A stretch of 64,000 nt of DNA from Bacteroidota bacterium (GTDB lineage: Bacteria; Bacteroidota; Bacteroidia; AKYH767-A; 2013-40CM-41-45), in NCBI GenBank assembly GCA_003389385.1, contig QQVM01000009.1:1-64000 (forward strand). The letters are read 5' to 3'. Positions 10,803 through 19,923 of this stretch are shown here, piece by piece. Both the position numbers and the translations under genes were made by a program. The notes under the pieces are model-generated. The model was not told the DNA's origin and made no database searches. It saw only the letters and a list, made by a program, of their open reading frames with translations. Numbering within the stretch: position 1 is the stretch's first letter; each line of letters begins with the position of its first letter.

Positions 10803-13700
10803 ATGCACGTTTTAAATACTGCCGGATCTTTGCTTCAAATCCGTCATCAGGTAATTTTTTTTTTCTGCGTAGCAAGTTTCCTTCTGGCTTTTCTTGGCCT
10901 AAACAGAACTGTATCTGCACAACAACACGATACAATTAAAGTTGCCACGTATAATTTGCTTAATTATCCAGCGGTAAGCAGTTTCACGTCTGATACAACA
11001 ACTCGTAATCCTCATTTCAGAGTTGTAATGGCCGGGATGCTTCCCGATATCCTTGTAGTCCAGGAGCTCAATTCATCAAACGGACTAAATGGCTTTGTCT
11101 CCAATGTCATGAATAAAGTTTCATCCGGTTATGCAGCCGGAACTTTCATTGACGGGCCAGACACAGACAATGGAGTTGTTTATCGCACTTCAAAATTCCA
11201 ATTTCTTGGAAACACAAGAATAAGAACGGCCTTGCGCGACATCAATGAATTTAAATTTAAGCACATTTTATCCGGTGATACAATCAGAGTGTTTTCGCTG
11301 CACCTGAAGGCAAGTTCGGGAAGCACGAATGAAGCTCAAAGAGCCGCGGAGGTGGACAGCTTAAGAAAATACACTAATGCCCTGCCATTAGGCAGCAATT
11401 TCATTGTATGCGGAGATTTCAATATTTATTCATCTACTGAAAGTGCTTACGTAAAACTACTTCAGGTGACAGCAGGAAATGAAGGTCATGTGATAGATCC
11501 ATACACCCTGACAGGTTCCTGGAACAGTTCCTCTTTCGCAATTCATCACTCACAGTCAACCAGGACAAGAAGTTTCGGAGGAGGATCTACCGGCGGGCTT
11601 GATGATCGCTTTGATTTTCTGCTTCATTCAAAAGCATTGTCACAAAACGGAGGAGTAAAGTATGTTAGTAGTTCCATGAAGGCGTACGGAAATGATGGGA
11701 ATCACTATAATGATTCAATCAATCGTCAGCCAAACACTTCCGTGAGTGCAGCAATTGCCAATGCGCTCCATGACGCTTCGGATCATCTTCCCGTATTTGC
11801 CAAGTATACATTTGAGTACAGTACTGCTGCAATTGTTGATGCAGGTGTAACAGCAATTCTGTCTCCGGGATCGTCCGCTTGTCCGAACCCGGTTCAAAGC
11901 CTTCAGGTACAAATTCGAAATTATGGCAGTGACAGCCTTCATTTTGCAAACAACAATCTCAATGTAGTTTTGAAAATAACCAATCCAACAGCTTCAGTAC
12001 AAACCTTTGTTAAATTACTCAATACAGGAAGTCTGGCCTCAGGTCAATACATGAGCGTGTTGTTCAATTCTACTTATGATCTTGGAATGCCCGGAAATTA
12101 TGTCCTGAACTCCTACACTTCATTCAGCAATGATGTCAACCATAACAACGATACCCTGCCGGCACAAACGGTTACCGTCTTCAGCAGCCCGCTTGCAACA
12201 GTTAATCCTCCGGGGCCATTGACTCTTTGTTCCGGTTCAGTAACCTTGACAGCCAGCACAGGTGTTTCGTATTTATGGTCAACCGGAGCGACTACTCAGT
12301 CAGTTACCGTATCTTTTCCTGGAAGTTATTATGTTCAGGTAAGCAATTCGAATGGTTGTTCATCCACTTCTGACACAGTATTTATCACACAAGGCGGAGG
12401 CACAGTTTCAGGCACTGTATTTACAGAAAGCATGGGAAGCGTGTCTTCCACGACTGCCATCACAACCCATGAAAACAATAACGGCTTCGACAATATTCCG
12501 CTGACCATGGCAGGAAGTGGAGATGTGAGAAATACACAGTCTTCGCTGGGAACATATCCGGGAGCAAGCGGAGGTGCAAATGTCTTTCTTACAAATGTTG
12601 CCGGACGCAATTTCATCATCTCTGATATTGACGCTTCAGGAAAAAATAATTTGGAGCTTTCTTTCGGTGTTTACAAGAGTTCAACGACAAGTAACGGCAG
12701 CGACTTTCAGGTTTTAGTGAGCGATGACGGAGTGAATTATTCACCGTTGAGTTTTGCAGCATTGCCGACAGGAAGCGGTACTGCTCGCTGGGAGTATAGA
12801 ACGGCGATCGGGACAATTCCATCGGCATCTAATTTAAGGATACAGTTTTTGCAATCAGGAACAGCCACGCAATACAGAGTAGATGATGTGCTTCTTACAT
12901 ATAATGGAGTGACACCCCAGATCAGCGCAGGCGGACCATCCAACTTTTGCCAGGGCGACTCTGTTGTTCTTACGGCCAGTCCGGGTTCTGCATACTTATG
13001 GAGTACTGGCAGCACTAACCAAAGTATCACAGTTTACAATTCCGGAAATTATTCCGTAGAAGTAGATTGTTACAGCTCAAATCCATTCAGTGTAAATGTT
13101 CAGGTTTGCGATACTCTGACACTGAATCTGACCGCTTTTCTTGAAGGCTTTTACATTGGAGGAGGTATGATGAGAGCAGTATCTGATCCAATCAGTCACC
13201 CTACGATTTGCGACACTGTTGTGGTGGAGCTTGCTTCAGTAATTGCACCGTATGATGTTATGTTTGACTCCAGATCTACACTCAATACGGATGGCACCGG
13301 TGTATTCAGGTTTCCCGGTGCGCCTCTGAGCGGTTCATTTTATCTTGTAATACGACACAGGAATTCGATTGAAACATGGAGCGCGGCTCCTATTTCATTA
13401 AACGGATCAACTTTTAGCTACAATTTCAGCAGCAGTGCCTTACAGGCTTACGGAAGCAATCTCCAAAATATGGGTGGTGTGTACGGAATTCATACAGGCG
13501 ACATCAGCGATGGAAACATTTCTGGAAACCAGGATGGCCTTGTAGATCCTTTGGACTTATCATCACTGGAAATGGCTTTTGCCCAGTTTTTAACTGGATA
13601 CATAGTTTTCGACCTGAACGGAGATGGAGTTCTTGAGAGTGCGGATTACAGTTTGCTTGAGAATAAACTGAATCAGTTCATCAGTATCATGCGTCCCTGA
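10803..13700 (+). CDS. secreted endonuclease/exonuclease/phosphatase-fold nuclease with Ig-like repeats and a dockerin-like end
   Basis: A 965-residue exported protein. After a signal peptide (about 1-40, ending VSAQ), residues 44-340 form an EEP-family catalytic domain with every active-site motif: N51 (YNLLNY), E88 (VVQELN), HLKA, GDFNIY, DDRFDFLL and the final SDHLPV. This is followed by a CARDB-like domain (about 345-455), two CxG/YLWSTG Ig-like repeats (about 465-520 and 715-765) flanking a jelly-roll-like region, and two EF-hand-type loops at the C-terminus (DGLVDPLDLSSLE and FDLNGDGVLESADYS), which resemble a dockerin or calcium pair. No T9SS sorting domain is visible. It may degrade extracellular nucleic acid for phosphate. 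A TATCTTCG at 10732 is a weak promoter candidate. Confidence 0.85.
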   Translation: MHVLNTAGSLLQIRHQVIFFFCVASFLLAFLGLNRTVSAQQHDTIKVATYNLLNYPAVSSFTSDTTTRNPHFRVVMAGMLPDILVVQELNSSNGLNGFVSNVMNKVSSGYAAGTFIDGPDTDNGVVYRTSKFQFLGNTRIRTALRDINEFKFKHILSGDTIRVFSLHLKASSGSTNEAQRAAEVDSLRKYTNALPLGSNFIVCGDFNIYSSTESAYVKLLQVTAGNEGHVIDPYTLTGSWNSSSFAIHHSQSTRTRSFGGGSTGGLDDRFDFLLHSKALSQNGGVKYVSSSMKAYGNDGNHYNDSINRQPNTSVSAAIANALHDASDHLPVFAKYTFEYSTAAIVDAGVTAILSPGSSACPNPVQSLQVQIRNYGSDSLHFANNNLNVVLKITNPTASVQTFVKLLNTGSLASGQYMSVLFNSTYDLGMPGNYVLNSYTSFSNDVNHNNDTLPAQTVTVFSSPLATVNPPGPLTLCSGSVTLTASTGVSYLWSTGATTQSVTVSFPGSYYVQVSNSNGCSSTSDTVFITQGGGTVSGTVFTESMGSVSSTTAITTHENNNGFDNIPLTMAGSGDVRNTQSSLGTYPGASGGANVFLTNVAGRNFIISDIDASGKNNLELSFGVYKSSTTSNGSDFQVLVSDDGVNYSPLSFAALPTGSGTARWEYRTAIGTIPSASNLRIQFLQSGTATQYRVDDVLLTYNGVTPQISAGGPSNFCQGDSVVLTASPGSAYLWSTGSTNQSITVYNSGNYSVEVDCYSSNPFSVNVQVCDTLTLNLTAFLEGFYIGGGMMRAVSDPISHPTICDTVVVELASVIAPYDVMFDSRSTLNTDGTGVFRFPGAPLSGSFYLVIRHRNSIETWSAAPISLNGSTFSYNFSSSALQAYGSNLQNMGGVYGIHTGDISDGNISGNQDGLVDPLDLSSLEMAFAQFLTGYIVFDLNGDGVLESADYSLLENKLNQFISIMRP

Positions 13701-13881: not shown

Positions 13882-15720
13882 ATGAAAAAACAATTACTTT
13901 CATTTTTAATGATTCTGTTTGCCACTTCGATGATGGCACAAACCTCCGGTGGGCCCGACAACTTTGGCTATACATGGAAAAACAGCAATGATCCATCCGG
14001 ACCAACTTACAACTGGATAGACATTACCACTTTACCAAGTGCAGTGCAGGTGACAGGTCTGGGAGACGACAACACTGTCGGATTTTTTCCTATCGGATTT
14101 AATTTCCAGTATTACTGGTACACAGTAAATCAGTTCAAGATAGGATCAAACGGTTATCTGATATTCGGCAGCGGACAACTTGCTCCTAATTTTCCCGTGA
14201 TACCATCACCGGCACAGCCGCATGATTTTCTTGCGGCCATGCTCACCGACCTCAACTTTGCCGGAACAGGCAACGTAGCCGAGTGCTGGTATTGGACTAA
14301 TCAGGCAGATACTCTGGTAGTATCCTTCATCAATGTACCATTCTGGATCAATGCAACTCCTCCATATACCGGATTTAACACATTCCAGTTTATTCTGACC
14401 TCCACTGACAGCTCAATCACTTATCAGTATTTTAACCAGTCAGGAACATCTCCCGGCACAACTTCACCTGTTGTATCTTCCGGATTTGAAAACAACTCAG
14501 GTTCAGACGGACTCACCATTCTGAGCGATGTGTATCCGACAGCGAATACCGCAGTGAAAATTTTCTACCCTGATTCGATCACCGCTGCCATCAATGATGC
14601 TTCCACTGTTTTCAGCGGACTTCCTGCCAGCGGAGCCACTTTCCTTTCCAAGGATGGCAATTCAATTCCTATGCAGGCCAGAATTAAAAACACAGGTAAC
14701 CAGGCCTGGTCACCATTTAATGTGGACATGAGGATCATCGATGAAAACGGTATTGTTCAGATTCAGGAAACACTTACCAGTTCCGCTCTGGCAGCAGGCC
14801 AAACTGAAGACCTTGTTTCAACTACCGTCTTCAATCCCACCACAGCAGGAAGATATACCCAAATTGTCAATACCATGATGCCCGGCGATTTGGTTTCAAC
14901 TAACAATGCGAAGTATCAGGAAATTGTTGTGGTAGATACAACTACAGTAGACATAGCTTTAAGTTATACAGGATCTGTGGCTGTGCCTCCATCAACTGGA
15001 ATTTCATGGTCTGGCGGTAACGCAGGTGTAGGAGTGGAAATCGTTCCTCCGTTTTATCCTTGTTATGTGAGGAAGCTGGAGTTCTTCATTACGTCTAACA
15101 GCGCGGCAACCGGCTTCTATGCTCTAATTTATGATAACGGCGGACCGGACGGAACTCCAGGAAATTTACTTGATTCAATATTTGTATCCGGCGGTCAGGT
15201 GCTGTATCCAAATCTTTGGAATACTGTGTTCCTTGCCAATCCTATTTTGATAGACTCCGGATCGGTTTTCATAGAGTGGAGAATGCAAGGCTCAAACATT
15301 GCACTCGGAACTGATGAAACACTTCCTGTGAGCAACAGGTCTTACGAAACTCTTGGAGGCTGGGCGATCTTCAGAGACCGTGAATTGCGCGACCCTATGA
15401 TTCGTGCTCTAGTGGCGACAAGCCCTACATCCGGCGTGCTGAATGCTAACCTGGTCAATCTCGCCGGTGAATTTTATCCATCACCTTCTTCAGGAAAAAT
15501 GTCTCTGGATATTAACCTCGAGCAGACACGCGCGGATTTAAAATTTGAAGTCTACAATGTACAGGGAAAGAAAGTATACAGCAGAGAGCTGAAAAATTCC
15601 GCACCCAATGGATTTACCAGACTGGATTTTGATTTCACCTCACTTGGAAGCGGACTTTTTGTTTGTAAAATCACTTCTGGTGATGTTCAGATCAATAGGA
15701 ATTTCATTCTTGCTGATTAA
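13882..15720 (+). CDS. T9SS-exported surface protein of unknown function
   Basis: A 612-residue secreted protein. The start at 13882 (MKKQLLSFLMILFATSMMAQ) gives a clear signal peptide; an upstream TTG frame is less likely. Residues about 25-200 have a nidogen-like/beta-sandwich look (DNTVGFFPIGFNFQYYW, FKIGSNGYLIFGSG, FQFILTSTDSSITYQY). A CARDB-like segment follows (about 240-350), then a jelly-roll-like region. Residues about 530-612 are a T9SS type A sorting domain (FYPSPSSGKMSLDI, LKFEVYNVQGKKVYSREL, GLFVCKITSGDVQINRNFI). It is separated from the next operon by a strong terminator. Function cannot be assigned. Confidence 0.8.
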   Translation: MKKQLLSFLMILFATSMMAQTSGGPDNFGYTWKNSNDPSGPTYNWIDITTLPSAVQVTGLGDDNTVGFFPIGFNFQYYWYTVNQFKIGSNGYLIFGSGQLAPNFPVIPSPAQPHDFLAAMLTDLNFAGTGNVAECWYWTNQADTLVVSFINVPFWINATPPYTGFNTFQFILTSTDSSITYQYFNQSGTSPGTTSPVVSSGFENNSGSDGLTILSDVYPTANTAVKIFYPDSITAAINDASTVFSGLPASGATFLSKDGNSIPMQARIKNTGNQAWSPFNVDMRIIDENGIVQIQETLTSSALAAGQTEDLVSTTVFNPTTAGRYTQIVNTMMPGDLVSTNNAKYQEIVVVDTTTVDIALSYTGSVAVPPSTGISWSGGNAGVGVEIVPPFYPCYVRKLEFFITSNSAATGFYALIYDNGGPDGTPGNLLDSIFVSGGQVLYPNLWNTVFLANPILIDSGSVFIEWRMQGSNIALGTDETLPVSNRSYETLGGWAIFRDRELRDPMIRALVATSPTSGVLNANLVNLAGEFYPSPSSGKMSLDINLEQTRADLKFEVYNVQGKKVYSRELKNSAPNGFTRLDFDFTSLGSGLFVCKITSGDVQINRNFILAD

Positions 15721-15739
15721 TAATTTAAAAATTGTTTAC

Positions 15740-15770
15740 AAAAGCCCCTTTATAGGGGCTTTTGCTTTTA
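15740..15770 (+). terminator. Rho-independent terminator after the T9SS cargo gene
   Basis: AAAAGCCCC (15740-15748) pairs perfectly with GGGGCTTTT (15755-15763) around a 6-base loop, followed by a T-rich stretch. It lies 20 bases past the stop of the 13882-15720 gene and isolates the lipoprotein/DUF1501 operon downstream. Confidence 0.85.
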
Positions 15771-15841: not shown

Positions 15842-16711
15842 ATGCGAATTCCCGGAATTTTAGTATTTCTGTTTTTCATAACTATCATATCATCCTGTAA
15901 GAAGGACGAGTTATTTGTAGTTGAAGGAAATTTAGCTCCGCCAGACCGGACGATTGAGAGCGTAACGATTGAGACATACATAAACCGCAGTTACATTCTG
16001 GTGCTTGGAAGAGAACCTCTTTTTCAGGAAATGAAATCAGCTTTTCAAACATTGTCAGCCGCGAACGCAGACAGTACATCAAGATATGCTTTTCTTACTG
16101 ACCTATTTAACAAACCAGATTATCTCGTAAACCTATACAATCAAAATAAAATCAATCTGTTAAATAATGTGGATACTTCTGACTTCTCCACATGGATTTT
16201 TCTCTTTCAGTTTTACCTGAACGACAGCAGTTTCATATTTCAGTGGCCGGTGATACAGTATGAACTTGACAGGATGAAAGCCTTGCGAGATGCATTTCCG
16301 CAGTTCACTAACGGCAGTATAAACATTCAGGAGTTGCACAGCCGCATGAGCAATAACTACCTGTATGACCAGATTAATATGGGCTCAGCGAATTTCGTCA
16401 TCTCCACATTTCAGAATCTGCTGATCAGAAATCCCACTTTGTCTGAGCAGTCATCAGGTGTGAGCATGGTGGATGGCTTGAACGCAATCTTGTTTTTGCA
16501 AGCTGGAAATTCAAAAGTTGATTACCTCAGGATACTTACCGAAAGCTCTAATTATTATGAGGCACAGGTGGTGCATATGTATCGCAAGTACCTGAGACGC
16601 GATCCAATAACGATGGAAATGAGTGCAGGGACTGCATTATTCTCCTCCGCAAATGATTATACAGCCGTTCAGAAGCTGATTCTTGCCTCTGACGAATTCA
16701 TTGGACTCTGA
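15842..16711 (+). CDS. lipoprotein with repeated Y-x-(L/F)-x-R-(E/D)-P segments, first gene of the DUF1501 operon
   Basis: A 289-residue predicted lipoprotein: a hydrophobic signal (residues 1-18) ends in IISSC, with Cys19 followed by KKDE. The mature part is helical. Two segments look alike, one near the N-terminus (YINRSYILVLGREPLFQEM) and one at the C-terminus (MYRKYLRRDPITMEMSAG ... KLILASDEFIGL), and both resemble the segments in the next gene product. The pattern recalls the R-x-P/E helical motif of DUF4214 or DUF1549-type proteins, but I cannot make a firm family call. The TGA stop shares its last base with the ATG of the next gene, implying translational coupling. It is probably a structural or binding partner of the DUF1501 protein. 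Confidence 0.7.
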   Translation: MRIPGILVFLFFITIISSCKKDELFVVEGNLAPPDRTIESVTIETYINRSYILVLGREPLFQEMKSAFQTLSAANADSTSRYAFLTDLFNKPDYLVNLYNQNKINLLNNVDTSDFSTWIFLFQFYLNDSSFIFQWPVIQYELDRMKALRDAFPQFTNGSINIQELHSRMSNNYLYDQINMGSANFVISTFQNLLIRNPTLSEQSSGVSMVDGLNAILFLQAGNSKVDYLRILTESSNYYEAQVVHMYRKYLRRDPITMEMSAGTALFSSANDYTAVQKLILASDEFIGL

Positions 16712-17196
16712 TGAGTAAACTGAAAATAATATTCTTTCTGATTGTGCCTGTGATACTGTCGTGCACCAAGGAAAAGAAATACCAATATGAAGTGGATCCT
16801 GTAAGCGTGTCGCAGAGCATTAGCGATAAAACCAATCAGAAAAGCAGCGCGGAGTTTATTTCAATCGCATACGCGGACCTGTTTGGAACAAGCATTCCGC
16901 AGACGAAACTTGTTAACCTCAGCATTGCTTATTCTTCATTTGGAGATCTGAAATTGATTGAAGACCGGATCATCAGAAGCTTTCTGAATGATACAAGCGC
17001 TCAAATACCTGTAACACCTGCGGTTAACGGAGATACAGCGCTGTTCATCAGAAATACGTATATAAAATTCTACAACAGAGAGCCTGGCGAATTTGAGCAA
17101 CAGCAATGGATCAACCTGATCAGGAACAATTCAGCTGTGAATCCGACTACCATCTACTATGCTATAATGACTTCTGATGAATACAGGTTTTATTGA
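16711..17196 (+). CDS. small lipoprotein related to the preceding gene product
   Basis: A 161-residue predicted lipoprotein with signal ending VILSC (Cys18) and a charged KEKK after it. Two segments, FISIAYADLFGTSIPQTKL near residue 50 and FIRNTYIKFYNREPGEFEQQQWINLI near residue 110, match the Y...(L/F).REP..E pattern of the previous protein, and the end (IYYAIMTSDEYRFY) matches that protein's end (KLILASDEFIGL). The two genes therefore look like unequal relatives. It overlaps its upstream neighbour by one base and sits 9 bases before the DUF1501 gene. No known function. Confidence 0.7.
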   Translation: MSKLKIIFFLIVPVILSCTKEKKYQYEVDPVSVSQSISDKTNQKSSAEFISIAYADLFGTSIPQTKLVNLSIAYSSFGDLKLIEDRIIRSFLNDTSAQIPVTPAVNGDTALFIRNTYIKFYNREPGEFEQQQWINLIRNNSAVNPTTIYYAIMTSDEYRFY

Positions 17197-17205
17197 TAAG
17201 GAACA

Positions 17206-18555
17206 ATGAGAAGACGAGAGTTCATAAAGAAATCAGCAGCTGCCACGGCGGGAATGATCATGGCGCCTTACATTTTGCCATCAGGCAGATTATTTGCAGC
17301 CTCCGGTTTACGAAAAGTTAATCATGTGGTTTTTTGTTTATACGCCGGTGGAGTGAGAAATCTGGATTCAATTCACATGAACGACGGTAACCTAATGACG
17401 AATTTGCTGAGCGGAGGCACTTCGGTTTCGCCGGACATTGCCGGAAGAATGGAGCCATTACCTCCATCACCATTACCGATGCCTCTGCAGAATTACGGAA
17501 CTCTCTTCAAGGAGTTCAGATACAGATCAGGACCTACAGGCCACTACAACGGACATACAGTTGCACTCACAGGAAACTATGTAGACGTGGATCTGAACAT
17601 TCGGGAGCATCCGCAGAAGCCTACCATATTTGAATATTACAGGAAGCACAACAGTCCTCAGCAAAGCGCACTGAAGTCCTGGTGGGTTTCCAATACACTT
17701 GGCCCTTATCCTGCACTTAACTATTCCACTGCAGCAGGCTACGGCGCACAGTATGGTGCTAATTTCATATCTCCCACTTCCCTGATCAGTCAACAGGGAT
17801 TTGATGCGCTTGGAAATCCACGCACATTTTCCGGGGCTGAAGAGAACGCGAAGAATGAAATGCACAGATTCGTGAACGGAATGTTTGGCAAATCCTATGT
17901 AGACGGAACCGCAGGGATTGTCAACTCAGAGGCAGACAGAATCGTGTTGCAGCAGTTTATCAGCGACCTCTTCACAAAAGCTCAGAATCCTTCGTTCCGA
18001 AACTCCTGGGGAGCAGCTACTGTCATGAACAACGACATGTATAATATTCTCTTCGCGCAGGAGATTATAAAGACATTTGAACCGGAATTACTTGTAGTGA
18101 ATATGCAGGATGTGGACATCTGCCACTTTAACTTCACCGATTATGCAAACAATTTGCGCAAAGCGGATTTCGCTGTTGCCCACTTATGGAAAACCATACA
18201 GGACACTCCTGGGATGGCGAATGACACGGTTTTGATAGTCGCGCCGGAGCACGGGAGAAATTTTTATCCTAATACTAGTGTAGATGCCTATGGAAGATAC
18301 GCCATAGATCACACAGCGCCTAACGACCCTAACTTCAACGGTGATCCAAACTTGCAGATGGCAAGAGAAATTTTTTGTCTTGTCGCCGGTCCGCCTAATG
18401 TGGTAGTACAGGGTCAGGTAATCAACACATTGATGGGCGAGAGCACCGAAATAGTTCCGGCCATCGCAGAATTGCTAGGGTTTGAGAATTTGATTTCCGG
18501 AAGCAACGGAATGAAGCGATGGATCAACTGTCAAATGCAAGCTGCATTCGTATGA
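17206..18555 (+). CDS. Tat-exported DUF1501 protein (alkaline-phosphatase-like fold)
   Basis: A 449-residue DUF1501 family protein. The N-terminus has a twin-arginine signal (RRREFIKKSAAATAG) with cleavage near residue 31, so it is exported folded, probably with a metal. DUF1501 proteins belong to the alkaline phosphatase/sulfatase superfamily. Likely metal or active-site segments are LYAGGVRNLDS near residue 45, GHYNGHTVALTGNY near 115, NMQDVDICHFNFTDY near 300, VAPEHGRNFYPN near 345, and AIDHTAPND near 362. In planctomycetes such genes pair with PSCyt1/DUF1549/DUF1553 cytochrome genes; here the following gene has a PSCyt1-like C-x4-CH region. The stop overlaps the next ATG by 4 bases (ATGA). 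Substrate unknown. Confidence 0.85.
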   Translation: MRRREFIKKSAAATAGMIMAPYILPSGRLFAASGLRKVNHVVFCLYAGGVRNLDSIHMNDGNLMTNLLSGGTSVSPDIAGRMEPLPPSPLPMPLQNYGTLFKEFRYRSGPTGHYNGHTVALTGNYVDVDLNIREHPQKPTIFEYYRKHNSPQQSALKSWWVSNTLGPYPALNYSTAAGYGAQYGANFISPTSLISQQGFDALGNPRTFSGAEENAKNEMHRFVNGMFGKSYVDGTAGIVNSEADRIVLQQFISDLFTKAQNPSFRNSWGAATVMNNDMYNILFAQEIIKTFEPELLVVNMQDVDICHFNFTDYANNLRKADFAVAHLWKTIQDTPGMANDTVLIVAPEHGRNFYPNTSVDAYGRYAIDHTAPNDPNFNGDPNLQMAREIFCLVAGPPNVVVQGQVINTLMGESTEIVPAIAELLGFENLISGSNGMKRWINCQMQAAFV

Positions 18556-19478
18556 TTAAGATTCGCAATTTATATCTCGTTTGGTGCAGCATAATCATGT
18601 TGTCAATTTTAGCATATTCCTGTACTAAAGACAGCATGCCGGAGAATCCTTATGACAGTGTAGATTATTCTGGCAATACAAACTCTCCTGCAGATCCTGA
18701 TCCCAATTCAATTGCCGGACTTCATCGCAATATCTTTTTTCCTAAATGCGCCAATCCCGGATGTCATGACGGAACATTCGAACCGGATTTTCGAACAGTG
18801 GAATCCAGTTATTACACATTAGTTTATCATCCTGTCATCAAGGTAACACTCGATTCAAATAAGATCTATTCTCACCGCGTCATTCCGAATAATACTGCTG
18901 ATTCCTGGTTAGTGGAGCGGCTCACAACACTTACAACAGAGTACATGCCCTCCAATGCGGTTCGTCTGAGCAGCAATGAGATCAACCGTGTGAAAAATTG
19001 GATCAATGCAGGATGTCCGGATATGAACGGCAATGTGGCAGTAAAACCAAATTTGCAGCCTAACATTCTGGCCTATGTCGCACTTGATTCTGCATTTAAC
19101 AGAATTGATACAATCAGAAAAGATGATTTTCCATTGAATCCCTTCCTTGTGAATGGCGGCTCAACAATGACAATTGCATTCGTGGCAACCGATACGGCTG
19201 ACGGCGATGCTGCAACAGATCCTTCACAATTCACTGTAAAGGAAATTCGTTTTTCTACAGACAAGAATAACTTCAGCGGAGCTACTGTGATTCCTGCTAC
19301 TTTATATGTTGCACAATTCAGCGCATGGTTTGTAACAGTACCGGTCAGCTGGCCTGTAGGACAAACAGTTTATTTCAGAATTTATGTGAATGATGGACAT
19401 CATACGCAGAATGCGGAGTTCCCGAGGAACGAATCGCTTGATTATTACAAGACAATTTTTGCCTTCCATGTTCAGTAG
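18552..19478 (+). CDS. lipoprotein with PSCyt1-like domain carrying a C-x4-CH heme-like motif
   Basis: A 308-residue exported protein. Signal residues 1-23 end at Cys24 (LAYSC), a relaxed lipobox. Residues about 55-157 resemble the planctomycete-type cytochrome c domain (PSCyt1): IFFPKC at 61-66, C66-ANPG-C71-H72, then a helical stretch ending TEYMPSNAVRLSSNEINRVKNWINAGC, where M133 stands at the usual axial-Met position. The heme motif has four residues between the cysteines, not two. The C-terminal half (about 170-308) is a beta-rich domain. The ATG at 18552 overlaps the DUF1501 stop, and the next gene overlaps this one by 11 bases. A redox partner role for DUF1501 is inference. Confidence 0.72.
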   Translation: MIKIRNLYLVWCSIIMLSILAYSCTKDSMPENPYDSVDYSGNTNSPADPDPNSIAGLHRNIFFPKCANPGCHDGTFEPDFRTVESSYYTLVYHPVIKVTLDSNKIYSHRVIPNNTADSWLVERLTTLTTEYMPSNAVRLSSNEINRVKNWINAGCPDMNGNVAVKPNLQPNILAYVALDSAFNRIDTIRKDDFPLNPFLVNGGSTMTIAFVATDTADGDAATDPSQFTVKEIRFSTDKNNFSGATVIPATLYVAQFSAWFVTVPVSWPVGQTVYFRIYVNDGHHTQNAEFPRNESLDYYKTIFAFHVQ

Positions 19479-19923
19479 AAGCACAAGAAATATCATCGCT
19501 TTAATCGTTTTCATTCTAATGCTGAATGGATGCAAAAAGGATGAAATTGAGTTTTCATATGTTCCGATAATAGAAGTCTTGTCAGTCTCTCCGCAAAACG
19601 CCAATGAGTATTCTGACAATGTCATCATCACATTAAGCTATGAAGATGGTGATGGCGATCTGGGTGAGAATGATGCCTCAGTAAAAAATTGCTTCGTCCG
19701 TGACAGTCGAACCGGCGTGGAGGCTTCTTTCAGAATTCAGCAACTCGCTCCTGATAATTCTGCCATACCAATTAAAGGCACAATTAATATTGATCTTGGA
19801 GGATTGGGGATTACAAACAGCAGCAATAGCCAGTCAGCTTACTTTACTGTATATGTTTACGACAGGGCCGGAAATAAAAGCAACGAATCCGAAACACAAT
19901 CCATTACAATTCGCAAACCGTAA
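19468..19923 (+). CDS. small Ig-like lipoprotein, last gene of the DUF1501 operon
   Basis: A 151-residue lipoprotein: a signal sequence (RSTRNIIALIVFILMLNGC) ends at a good lipobox LNGC (Cys22) followed by KKDE. The rest looks like one beta-sandwich domain with the acidic loop ITLSYEDGDGDLGENDAS, common in Bacteroidota surface lipoproteins of cadherin or Ig-like type, and ends YVYDRAGNKSNESETQSITI. The ATG at 19468 lies inside the end of the preceding gene (11-base overlap), so it is part of the same transcript. Function unknown. Confidence 0.7.
   Translation: MFSRSTRNIIALIVFILMLNGCKKDEIEFSYVPIIEVLSVSPQNANEYSDNVIITLSYEDGDGDLGENDASVKNCFVRDSRTGVEASFRIQQLAPDNSAIPIKGTINIDLGGLGITNSSNSQSAYFTVYVYDRAGNKSNESETQSITIRKP

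Follow-up and report, generated by a model that had tools for sequence, protein, structure and literature searches.

The operon and its conservation

Five adjoining genes (g1 to g5) at positions 15842-19923 of the window, by which we mean the whole 64,000-nucleotide stretch of Bacteroidota DNA analysed here, look like a new arrangement of DUF1501 systems, in which a predicted exported protein of the alkaline phosphatase (AP) superfamily with a histidine at the nucleophile position is encoded together with a predicted heme lipoprotein and two helical lipoproteins that may act as scaffolds. The five-gene set is a real module, far beyond chance, since, of the 44 related loci that extend far enough to either side, 39 carry the complete set in the same order while their flanks vary. 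At the remaining five loci at least one gene has no recognised copy, or the order is rearranged. The gaps between module genes are mostly ≤30 bases in relatives, and clustering of the flanking genes, which vary, found no sixth conserved gene. This gene-order survey was one of the checks proposed with an earlier, sequence-only reading of the locus, and it found the order conserved.

All five genes lie on the forward strand. The first, g1 (15842..16711), encodes a lipoprotein (Cys19) with a predicted all-helical fold like that of phycobilisome linkers and DUF4214, and with two or three copies of Y-x-L-x-R-x-P-x3-E; it overlaps by one base g2 (16711..17196), which encodes a short lipoprotein (Cys18) sharing this repeat. 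After a 9-base gap follows g3 (17206..18555), the product of which is a predicted Tat-exported AP-superfamily protein, distantly related to DUF1501, with His113 at the nucleophile position. A 4-base ATGA overlap joins g3 to g4 (18552..19478), encoding a lipoprotein (Cys24) whose PSCyt1-like cytochrome c domain (C66-x4-C71-H72, Met132) precedes an uncharacterised C-terminal region, and g4 overlaps by 11 bases g5 (19468..19923), encoding a small lipoprotein (Cys22, with a CKKDE export-type signal) with relatives in the corresponding position of 54 sequences. The sequence-only reading had described five overlapping or abutting genes, and all of its junction lengths are exact. Its count of four lipoproteins or lipoprotein-like proteins also agrees with the signal peptides on g1, g2, g4 and g5, the lipobox cysteine being invariant among relatives that have that column (54/54, 57/57, 57/57 and 54/54, respectively), as does its single Tat signal with the g3 N-terminus MRRREFIKK, in which the first arginine is kept in 59/59 sequences; the NCBIfam model TAT_signal_seq scores g3 slightly under its cut-off.

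Just 5' of the operon, an intrinsic terminator on the forward strand (15739..15764, an 11-pair stem followed by a T-rich tail) parts it from the upstream gene. A sigma-70 promoter scan, with a model not suited to Bacteroidota, gave nothing above shuffles. Directly upstream lies a gene for a large secreted protein (10803-13700) with weak endonuclease/exonuclease/phosphatase and dockerin-type matches, and between it and the operon one for a type IX-sorted protein (13882-15720).

With g3 as query, 84,980 species genomes yielded 60 clear relatives and one more match, the 61st, which is weak and unrelated to the module. The carriers are all titled metagenome-assembled genomes (loci L031-L090, with no cultured isolate among those hits) and belong to the Bacteroidota except for one labelled Saccharospirillaceae. 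Within the order, g3 occurs patchily, in 18 of 42 genomes, and g1 accompanies it in 17 of these; the 18th holds only a partial g3 match. Several loci depart in individual ways. All five genes are present in the order g1-g4-g2-g3-g5 at L089:4507-8820, and two Saprospiraceae loci (L076:8337-9449 and L084:1775-2965) carry a related extra gene between g3 and g4 that by eye resembles a class V aminotransferase. The g1/g3 pair is present twice in one genome of the order (G428, contigs C174 and C35) and once in each of the other carriers there, fragments aside; with an 80% complete assembly in many contigs, G428 may be of mixed origin. A search of the open-licence literature, in which absence is weak evidence, found no paper describing the operon or a DUF1501 active-site substitution, and none of the papers found naming DUF1501 or DUF4214 describes the operon in its title or abstract.

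Fold and kinship of g3

The AlphaFold2 model of g3 (pLDDT 84) has the fold of the AP superfamily, its best matches being phosphatases and sulfatases. The PafA-type alkaline phosphatase structures 5tj3 and 5too are matched with Z of 26.6-27.1 (Foldseek E of 2e-10), and 304 residues are aligned to 5too with Z of 27.1 and rmsd of 3.5. We rely on the fold for the relation to PafA because profile comparison alone gave just 40%, with an unreliable C-terminal register, and was set aside. A sequence search of solved structures found none with g3 as single query and marginal matches with the g3 profile.

Pfam on g3 alone gives just a marginal phosphodiesterase match; DUF1501 (PF07394) is without a match at E ≤ 1 and its gathering cut-off is not reached. 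Indeed, no protein of the window reaches the Pfam thresholds of DUF1501, PSCyt1, DUF1549 or DUF1553. Among relatives of g3 (n = 55) there are weak matches to Phosphodiest (13), Sulfatase (12) and DUF1501 (8, the best at 3e-5). The g3 profile matched a mixed DUF1501 set at 86% over the whole protein, DUF1501 proteins of the type paired with DUF1800 at 91% and those of the planctomycete type at 44%. Trimmed to match columns, the hhalign comparison with the DUF1800-type proteins reached 94% over 100 columns, with a score of 62 against a block-shuffle maximum of 36. These profile comparisons support g3 as a distant relative of DUF1501, as the sequence-only reading had proposed.

Active site of g3

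The nucleophile of PafA, Thr79, lies within V-T-A-I-G-H-T-S-I-F-T-G, and T79 is named in the title of entry 5too. The corresponding stretch of g3, H113-Y-N-G-H-T-V-A-L-T-G, has the GH at +3/+4 and the TG at +9/+10. H113 was paired by hhalign with the PafA-type nucleophile threonine and, in a second comparison, with the invariant histidine of DUF1800-type DUF1501; the pairing was not recovered with the planctomycete-type DUF1501 profile. H113 is invariant (62/62), and the Ser/Thr/Cys nucleophile of the AP superfamily is absent from g3.

Outside the nucleophile region the PafA profile alignment cannot be relied on, and motifs were therefore used to pair the first strand and the metal site of g3 with those of PafA. 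The D/H/H metal ligands of PafA are kept in g3 as D304 (62/62), H307 (62/62) and H369 (61/61). In contrast, the position of PafA Asp38 is occupied by alanine or glycine in g3 and its relatives, and Asp352 is replaced by Glu348 (61/61), next to His349 (59/61), the counterpart of PafA His353. Thus only the D/H/H site is whole, instead of the two complete metal sites of the AP superfamily. A PEHGRN stretch of g3 is also near-invariant.

Canonical DUF1501 proteins have an invariant histidine as well (22/22 and 9/9 in two families, 31/31 together), with the D, H, E and H residues kept. Of the canonical residue set (His, D and H, E-F-G-R, D-H), g3 keeps His, D, H, E and H, and the phenylalanine of EFGR is histidine: at the His353 position, Phe stands in each of the 31 DUF1501 proteins compared, and H349 in g3. 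The alignments support the view that DUF1501 proteins are probably without the canonical nucleophile.

A PSCyt1-like, predicted heme lipoprotein

The C-x4-CH motif of g4, already recognised in the sequence-only reading, is invariant at C66, C71 and H72 (57/57), as is Met132-Pro in the same 57 sequences. After removal of the signal peptide, the g4 profile matched the PSCyt1 region of PSCyt1-DUF1549-DUF1553 proteins at 97-98% probability over ~90-100 columns, with the heme Cys-Cys-His, the Met-Pro and a C-terminal WI-x2-GA invariant. The Pfam model of PSCyt1 (PF07635) has no match in g4 or 52 relatives at E ≤ 0.1. The profile result supports a PSCyt1-like cytochrome c domain, predicted to bind heme, much as had been suggested from the letters alone; for the C-terminal region of g4, no family was found.

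The genome with the operon also encodes, on the minus strand at L095:5975-6739 and not far from genes that by eye resemble those of a cbb3 oxidase, a lipoprotein with two cytochrome domains, a PSCyt1 domain with C-x4-CH and then a C-x2-CH domain. Since this PSCyt1 domain is recognised by Pfam, the C-x4-CH spacing is no bar to PSCyt1 membership.

The helical lipoproteins and g5

The AlphaFold2 model of g1 has a pLDDT of 93.5. Among solved structures, phycobilisome linker domains make up all of its best matches, with Z up to 10.7 against 4.6 for the next unrelated fold; Z values of helical proteins such as g1 need care, and the sequence evidence agrees. DUF4214 is matched weakly in 43/50 relatives of g1 (best 2e-9) and PBS_linker in 17/50 (best 3e-9), while the window proteins g1 (20.9 bits) and g2 (21.1 bits) fall below the DUF4214 cut-off of 23.2. 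DUF4214 is likewise found in 35/54 relatives of g2, and the g1 and g2 profiles match at 94%. Phycobilisome linkers are assembly proteins. Unlike them, g1 is a Bacteroidota lipoprotein encoded in an operon with a putative enzyme and cytochrome, and with no phycobiliproteins.

The sequence-only reading had g1 and g2 stand in for DUF1549-like parts. For g1 this stands as suggestive: against 60 PSCyt1-DUF1549-DUF1553-type proteins it scored 47, compared with 38 for the best of 180 shuffles, and when the comparison was restricted to single domains, DUF1549 was matched at 87% and DUF1553, over 212 columns, at 61%. A first hhalign comparison with 20 DUF1553 proteins had given 16%, and the repeat comparison with 60 more diverse proteins gave 70%. 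For g2, the match to the DUF1549/DUF1553-type proteins is limited to a 35-residue C-terminal motif. DUF1800 was matched by g1 at 40%, scoring 37 where shuffles reached at most 25. These similarities are suggestive, and fall short of proof, of a linker-like core common to g1, DUF1549/DUF1553 and DUF1800.

No significant Pfam family was found for g5. Both g1 and g5 carry C-x-K-(D/E)2, a surface lipoprotein export signal defined in Capnocytophaga (PMC5080379). This raises a conflict of location: g3 has no lipobox and, in a Pfam search, no recognised type IX sorting domain, so it should stay in the periplasm, while g1 and g5 carry the surface signal.

Comparison with other DUF1501 arrangements

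DUF1501 occurs in 92 of 198 sampled Bacteroidota genomes. In the pair formed by DUF1501 and DUF1800 (PF08811), as in the operon, an exported AP-fold-related protein with an invariant histidine at the nucleophile position adjoins a helical partner. The pair differs in having Phe in place of H349 and, as the partner, one large DUF1800 protein. The genome with the operon contains a canonical DUF1800-DUF1501 pair as well (L094:6032-9323, contig C5), which differs further in the type IX sorting domain on its DUF1501 protein and in having no heme protein directly adjoining. This DUF1501 protein combines an RR-type N-terminus with a Por_Secre_tail match in Pfam, and a Tat-like start with a type IX end is unusual.

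The planctomycete-type system shares with the operon a DUF1501-type protein, a PSCyt1 heme domain and helical domains in neighbouring genes. However, a single protein of 750-1100 aa there combines the heme domain, the helical domains and a further CxxCH motif, whereas the operon encodes separate lipoproteins without canonical DUF1549 or DUF1553. A search for DUF1553 in 42 genomes of the order came back empty; it had no separate positive control, although in another search the same model detected the domain in 28/247 genomes. The operon therefore appears to be a parallel arrangement and not a neighbouring system that has been split up. Of the earlier proposal of a dispersed planctomycete system, the correspondence of parts stands; canonical DUF1549 and DUF1553 are absent from the operon, and DUF1553 did not turn up in the 42 genomes searched. 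DUF1501 clusters form part of the gene set of PVC bacteria and are uncharacterised (PMC4452313), and PSCyt gene clusters in Verrucomicrobia, with carbohydrate-binding modules and near sulfatases, are likewise of unknown function (PMC5615132).

Proposed working of the complex and alternatives

Considering the gene order, the predicted folds of g1 and g3, the residue conservation and the heme motif, the best explanation, which we hold tentatively, is that the products of the five genes form a single complex in the cell envelope, combining a g3 metalloenzyme with the heme of g4. In such a complex, g3 would fold and take up metal in the cytoplasm before Tat export and would be the catalytic subunit, an AP-fold enzyme with one complete metal site (D304, H307 and H369) and with His113 in place of the Ser/Thr/Cys nucleophile. 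The linker-type helical lipoproteins g1 and g2 would hold g3 at the outer membrane, g4 would be a mono-heme cytochrome c lipoprotein passing electrons to or from g3, and g5 would be an accessory lipoprotein. The physical complex, its metal content, electron transfer, substrate and chemistry are all what we infer, and it is the company of g3 in the operon that suggests a redox role.

It is unlikely, yet worth weighing, that g3 is an exported hydrolase or transferase of phospho- or sulfo-groups with His113 as nucleophile, forming an intermediate of the phospho-His type; the cytochrome and lipoproteins would then act in binding or regulation, and the operon would help to scavenge nutrients or modify glycans. 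The phosphatases and sulfatases among the best fold matches and the retention of the D/H/H site with E348 and H349 are in line with this, as are the DUF1800-DUF1501 genes that adjoin chitin synthase genes in certain bacteria (PMC5122149) and the PSCyt genes beside sulfatases (PMC5615132). However, both the canonical nucleophile and the Asp ligand equivalent to PafA D38 are lost, and the invariant heme motif would be left without a role. The same losses could be read as those of a pseudoenzyme whose AP fold has a binding role or is a structural element in an assembly at the surface, built with linker-like lipoproteins, for which the likeness of g1 to the linkers, themselves assembly proteins, would be apt. 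We consider this improbable: the D/H/H site, E348, H113 and PEHGRN are near-invariant among relatives with 38-78% identity to g3 of the window, a pattern that favours catalysis or metal binding.

Just as improbable, in our judgement, is the reading closest to the earlier one, in which the operon would be the planctomycete PSCyt1-DUF1549-DUF1553/DUF1501 machine in split form, all of its parts sharing ancestry and its function unchanged. Every part has a match (g3 with DUF1501, g4 with PSCyt1, g1 with DUF1549 at 87% and DUF1553 at 61%), but the g1 similarities are under the safe threshold, the g3 profile matches the DUF1800 type better (91%, against 44% for the planctomycete type), and H349 is kept where the 31 DUF1501 proteins compared have Phe.

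Returning to the envelope complex with a metalloenzyme and heme, the operon may be a third arrangement beside DUF1501/DUF1800 and DUF1501/PSCyt1-DUF1549-DUF1553, each with a His-substituted AP-fold protein and a helical partner, maybe linker-like; the PSCyt1 heme domain occurs in two of the three. A wider proposal, which we regard as rather doubtful, is that DUF1501-type proteins are a branch of the AP superfamily in which the nucleophile has become a metal-binding or catalytic histidine, forming a heme-coupled redox metalloenzyme of the envelope with phycobilisome-linker-like partners, and that the operon presents its parts separated.

Significance

Exported systems that combine DUF1501 with DUF1800 or with PSCyt1-DUF1549-DUF1553 are widespread and uncharacterised; they have been noted in Planctomycetes and Verrucomicrobia and are frequent in Bacteroidota, and nothing is known of the function of DUF1501/PSCyt systems according to the papers describing them (PMC5615132, PMC4452313). 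The operon offers a minimal version in which every part is a separate small protein, making the biochemistry tractable, and the invariant histidine at the nucleophile position provides one residue by which the group as a whole can be tested.
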